41,672 bases of DNA from a bacterium (GTDB taxonomy: Bacteria > Patescibacteriota > Minisyncoccia > Phycocordibacterales > Phycocordibacteraceae). The notes beneath the pieces are model-generated. The model ran no database searches. It saw only the letters and a list, made by a program, of their open reading frames with translations, and was not told where the DNA came from. The position numbers were made by a program, and so were the translations under genes. Positions 41,542 to 41,672 of this stretch are shown piece after piece; within the stretch, counting starts at the first letter, position 1, and each line of letters starts with the position of its first letter. The stretch is taken from assembly GCA_021794425.1 (NCBI GenBank), contig JAJYQV010000001.1:1-41672 (forward strand). Direction: 5' to 3'.

Positions 41542-41672
41542 AGCGGCTTCGCCGACTACACGAGTGCGCAAAGCGATTGTGCGTACGGCTCGCTTCATGC
41601 GAGCGTTCGCACAATCGCGACTATCTTTTGCGCACTTGTTGAGCGGCTTCGCCGACTACACGAGTGCGCAAA
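41542..41672. repeat. 100-bp-period direct repeat with nested hairpin, cut by the window end
   Basis: 31-nt AGCGGCTTCGCCGACTACACGAGTGCGCAAA at 41542-41572 and 41642-41672; hairpin 41563-41636 between. Confidence 0.85.

Follow-up and report, generated by a model that had tools for sequence, protein, structure and literature searches.

A tandem array of probable folded dif-like sites beside the dif site of a Patescibacteria chromosome

Among the described systems, the closest to the locus treated here is attP(+), the attachment site of the filamentous phage CTXphi of Vibrio cholerae. It combines attP1, AGTGCGTATTA-12 nt-TTATGTTGAGG, with attP2, AATGCGTATTA-7 nt-TTATGTTACGG, which lies inverted to attP1 at a distance of about 90 bp and has a centre of 5-7 nt (PMC3089051, PMC4246890). 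The folded (+) strand of CTXphi recombines with dif through a single XerC strand exchange, the bases adjoining the XerC arm have to match dif, and insertion creates a new functional dif, with attP2 and attP1 remaining on the chromosome (PMC3089051, PMC4246890). Here we describe the end of a 41,672-nt stretch of DNA (the window; contig JAJYQV010000001.1), the opening part of a 44,410-base scaffold from a Candidatus Kaiserbacteria-like genus of Patescibacteria. The last bases of the window form the left portion of a tandem array of dif-like sites that lie at dif and carry no cargo, and these units are very probably folded sites of the CTXphi design.

A 31-nt direct repeat (41542-41572 and 41642-41672, 100% identity, spacing 100) and nested stems with an 8-nt one-sided bulge, both reported in an initial annotation of the window, were found as described. 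The repeat and hairpin stretch folds at -69 kcal/mol, compared with -41.6 ± 3.6 kcal/mol in dinucleotide shuffles (z -7.7; 0 of 200 equal). The scaffold continues past the window end with a 10-N gap (41673-41682); to the right of this gap stand two contiguous identical 100-bp units, after which the array ends at a differing 28-bp sequence, AGTGCGCAAAA-GATATA-TTGTGCGCACT (scaffold 41900-41927). Judging from its sequence, this 28-mer is almost certainly the chromosome-dimer-resolution site dif. Each unit joins a forward dif-like site with a 4-nt centre to an inverted dif-like site with an 11-nt centre, the two pairing into one bulged hairpin in the order arm stem, 8-nt bulge, second arm stem and loop. 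Neither the abutment of the array on the chromosomal dif nor the identity of the stems as dif half-sites is visible from the window alone. The suggestion of a tandem array of structured units has thus been borne out and extended to an array of at least two units beside the chromosomal dif, and that of a recombination site holds in so far as the units are built like such sites, their stems being dif half-sites. The suggestion of a non-coding RNA found no support: there was no Rfam match above the gathering score, and relaxed thresholds gave nothing convincing. The features are as follows.

41543-41562, + strand: flank GCGGCTTCGCCGACTACACG with the mini-hairpin CGGC-TTC-GCCG, the same as the within-unit spacer
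41563-41572, + strand: forward arm AGTGCGCAAA, left half-site of the attP2-like forward site, matching the left arm of the same-genome dif
41573-41576, + strand: short central region of the forward site, GCGA, 4 nt
41577-41587, + strand: right half-site of the forward site, TTGTGCGTACG, with TTGTGCG in common with dif
41604-41614, - strand: right half-site of the inverted attP1-like site, CGTTCGCACAA on the + strand
41615-41625, - strand: long central region of the inverted site, 11 nt, GATAGTCGCGA on the - strand, starting with GAT like dif and holding the bulge
41626-41636, - strand: left half-site of the inverted site, TTTTGCGCACT on the + strand, the reverse complement of the dif left arm at 11/11 positions
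41637-41662, + strand: spacer TGTTGAGCGGCTTCGCCGACTACACG, the loop of the second stem-loop of the dumbbell described below
41663-41672, + strand: forward arm AGTGCGCAAA of the next unit, at the end of the contig piece
Beyond the gap, same scaffold: two contiguous units with forward arms at 41700 and 41800

An assembly break at a repeat had also been considered, and the scaffold does break inside the array. Across the gap, the last 127 nt on the left recur exactly as the first 127 nt on the right, resembling the overlap left by a k=127 de Bruijn assembler at a repeat; with contig ends that share exactly this length, the three displayed units may be two. An artefact in which the tandem copies are duplicated contig ends would fit this exact overlap across the 10-N gap, but it is very improbable as an account of the array. 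To the right of the gap two units stand without a break between them, so the copy number is at least two. Tandem copies are also present in two other assemblies, as two diverged 84-bp units (G031) and as two different hairpins in succession (G050), and single hairpins beside dif in relatives are independent of the gap.

The 17-nt core of the dif site (one mismatch allowed) occurs in exactly one copy in 78 of the 93 genomes of the genus and is absent from a reversed control. The 11+6+11 form is found in 78/78 genus sites, with nearly invariant inner bases; the outer arm bases are variable and tend to mirror one another, and the consensus is about RTGTCGYAAAA-GATATA-TTGTGCGACRT. The site is syntenic: its neighbours are an M23 peptidase gene and a small membrane open reading frame (ORF) in one direction, and a LOG-family gene, bL27 and bL9 in the other. 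Its distance to dnaA is 444-459 kb in G002, G027 and G035 (about 55-65% of genomes of roughly 700-800 kb), and in G002, one genome sampled coarsely, GC skew and the polarity of GGGNAGGG switch in the dif region. A 20-mer on the core was found in at least 119 genome contigs; among the matches listed, every title that names a group belongs to Patescibacteria (Saccharibacteria, Nomurabacteria, Kaiserbacteria, Yonathbacteria and others). Of 14 genomes tested, 13 had a Xer-type recombinase, in most cases a single one. The window genome has a single Phage_integrase-family gene, which is Xer-like and located on another contig (C25; L143, 1456-2424, - strand); its product passes the XerA-type NCBIfam model, with XerD and XerC scores that are high yet below the cut-offs. 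At dif, this single Xer should separate joined chromosomes. In its 28-bp 11+6+11 layout, its single occurrence per chromosome far from dnaA and the presence of Xer, the site resembles XerCD-dif, the single-Xer sites difH and difSL, and archaeal XerA-dif. However, it has its own consensus with mirrored arms, which is supplied here for Patescibacteria and of which no prior description was found in the open-access literature.

Two side observations concern dif and Xer. The Phage_integrase search gave no Xer in G050, which has dif and two hairpins; this assembly is ~93% complete, and the gene may simply be missing from it. Furthermore, nine genomes (G001, G007, G009, G021, G024, G048, G052, G061 and G080) have dif flipped with respect to the conserved genes around it, corresponding to nine separate changes on the tree, in which at least eight of the nine appear by name.

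A hairpin adjoins dif immediately on its left, and on that side alone, in 17 of the 78 genus genomes; hairpins of this kind also lie beside dif in three other Patescibacteria outside the genus (L179, L247 and L274). In 19 loci the stem-loop ends 0-6 nt before ATCTTTT, with half-sites 10-11 nt apart in nearly all, so that the central region of the inverted site measures 10-11 nt in nearly all relatives; GAT stands next to the arm in 19/19, a regularity partly preset by the census, which used ATCTTTT as its pattern. Two inverted sites with long and short centres forming a bulged hairpin were met in the window array and in several relatives, and some loci (e.g. G012, G036, G060 and G068) keep no clear left arm. 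A looser scan revealed no other kind of hairpin beside dif in the genus loci. Hairpins of this build were not found away from dif in the genus genomes, the other pattern matches folding differently, and none were seen beside dif sites with central GGTATA. Class-wide matches to the pattern, which were not folded one by one, are many and look like chance.

The inverted arm follows the dif arm of its own genome: 87 of 95 variable positions match, against a shuffle mean of 40.7, and 0 of 20,000 shuffles scored as high, in a statistic that ignores the kinship of the genomes. This tracking bears on a simpler reading, in which the hairpins are transcription terminators of the left-hand gene (stem-loop followed by TCTTTT). 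The hairpins do lie after the 3' end of the ORF upstream, and four T come next; however, the T run belongs to the inverted dif arm, the variable bases of which track the same-genome dif, and 61 of the 78 genomes have no hairpin. A terminator role is hardly probable. Orientation is uninformative in this respect: a hairpin was present in 0/9 flipped dif loci, which at p = 0.19 may be chance.

Hairpins beside dif have been gained many times. On the tree, at least 13 changes are required for the 17 occurrences, many inner branches being weak, and the sister genomes G069 and G092 carry different hairpins at the same position. The hairpins of G082 and G092 are nearly identical within flanks that are only 52-57% identical. 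Together these cases argue for gain by transfer over descent, with strong constraint on the hairpin as the alternative. In three genomes the left arm differs while the inverted and dif arms are identical (G051, TTTACGC; G067, AATGCGC; G071, TCTACGC), and G047 fits the same pattern with one arm mismatch. If an insertion takes the new dif arm from the element and leaves the old dif arm as the left arm, the arms of G051, G067 and G071 are as predicted.

These patterns also bear on fold-back template switching at the terminus, in which a nascent strand at the near-palindromic dif would copy its own arm and slippage would amplify the product, with neither recombinase nor mobility involved. Such copying is suggested by the inverted arm and spacer, which often form a perfect or near-perfect palindrome with the dif arm (G012, G060, G067 and G068), and by the copies invariably adjoining dif. 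It gives, however, no account of the recurring 10-11-nt centre, of a second half-site in its own stem or of near-identical hairpins amid diverged flanks, and left arms differing from the inverted and dif arms would be unexpected. We regard fold-back as unlikely, but as a serious rival.

The explanation we favour, if with guarded confidence, is that the one Xer of the host inserted cargo-less elements resembling CTXphi attP, in the form of folded single strands, at dif. The forward (short-centre) and inverted (long-centre) sites would pair on single-stranded DNA into a bulged duplex imitating dif, and the host Xer would exchange one strand at the border between the arm and GAT of dif. A folded circle, about 100 nt here, would thereby be inserted, with dif rebuilt on the right and the hairpin left behind on the left; the array could then arise from repeated insertion or from slippage between the direct arm repeats. 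Units excised from one arm end to the other and circularised measure 81-100 nt, and most of them fold as nearly fully paired dumbbells, i.e. two abutting stem-loops with a short bulge (z -4.6 to -9.3); the weakest dumbbell fold is that of G027.

The likeness to CTXphi attP(+) extends to paired inverted sites in a bulged hairpin, to a long centre of 12 nt there and 10-11 nt here and a short one of 5-7 nt there and 4-5 nt here, and to the match with dif of the bases next to the arm. The order is likewise shared, forward site, inverted site, short spacer and dif at this locus corresponding to paired sites, element and dif in CTXphi. The two differ in that the units described here are ~100 nt long and gene-less whereas CTXphi has cargo, in that the sites lie 16 nt apart instead of about 90, and in that a single Xer takes the place of XerC and XerD, in a Patescibacteria host and in a system known from sequence. 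Since cargo was looked for and not found, the units are not filed as CTXphi-type attP elements, though they are built like such a site.

Several observations weigh against insertion of this kind. There is no cargo between hairpin and dif, and no element with cargo and a paired site was found in the genomes or in viral contigs; a free circle of 60-100 nt has no known source. We infer the action of Xer on a folded unit, and the arms of G003, G027 and G036 match their own dif arm at only 8-9 of 11 positions (old or different). In addition, the flank left of the first unit in the window array has the sequence of the unit spacer, for which slippage is as good an explanation as repeated insertion.

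The units may or may not be remnants of larger phages. In one form of this idea they are scars of dif-integrating, CTXphi-like filamentous phages, that is, att hairpins remaining after deletion of the phage genome. Phages of the required habit are at hand, as Saccharibacteria harbour inovirus prophages at dif. In L260 (1999-7000), L282 (1363-6153) and L277, a complete Patescibacteria dif has inovirus genes (Zot-like, Rep-like) to its right; in L260 a second GATATATTGTGCGACGT and the usual right host flank follow about 5 kb further on, and this locus looks like a filamentous prophage integrated at the dif of a Saccharibacterium. Xer-exploiting phages thus occur in Patescibacteria. The L260 inovirus looks to be of the VGJphi/TLCphi kind, integrated at dif by the host Xer; those phages differ from the units in carrying phage genes, and VGJphi has one dif-like site and integrates as a double strand. 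The scar reading also accords with the order of sites, which is the one CTXphi leaves. However, the Saccharibacteria inoviruses seen have a plain dif without paired sites, no phage-bearing version of the hairpin occurs in the 78 loci (within about 4 kb), and each case would need deletion down to a 4-28-nt spacer, which together make scars improbable, though still a serious rival. No known phage carrying the array was found, and three CTX-like paired-attP matches in viral contigs, lying within a tailed-phage gene, were set aside as chance. Separately, ~36 Saccharibacteria loci have an FtsQ-like gene about 400 nt to the left of dif. Other IMG/VR contigs that are tailed-phage-like, among them L276 (integrase and head protease), L278 (terminase) and L362, carry a Patescibacteria-type dif, which may point to dif use by tailed phages or to host flank in the contig.

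Integron attC arrays are likewise tandem hairpins that recombine as folded strands beside a double-stranded site through a Xer-family enzyme. They differ from the present array, in which there are no cassettes, the half-sites are those of dif and no integron integrase (intI) was found, TIGR02249 and NF011946 scoring far below cut-off in the window genome. A route by which Xer-type recombinases came to folded single strands, as used by integron integrases, is a scenario discussed in PMC7790495. A natural array of folded sites beside dif in a host with one Xer makes this question testable with small substrates, and may reveal how recombination of folded DNA arises in ordinary Xer enzymes. It also places dif-attached folded sites of the CTXphi design, devoid of cargo, far outside Vibrio. 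More tentatively, and at present doubtful, recurrent gene-less mini-elements of dumbbell single-stranded DNA could be spreading in Patescibacteria via the ordinary single Xer at dif. If true, they would constitute an integron-like array lacking an integron integrase, and a present-day counterpart of the transition from Xer to integron.

Two minor observations concern other loci. In G018, of the same genus, a 93-bp tandem repeat of 1.9 copies (L026, 2227-2400) has no link to dif. Right of dif in L008 lie two small ORFs (about 1098-1213 and 1285-1464, both - strand); the one scanned gave no Pfam match, and by eye the pair may be paralogous membrane proteins with the apparent common ending YA..TGF.S..ISL.
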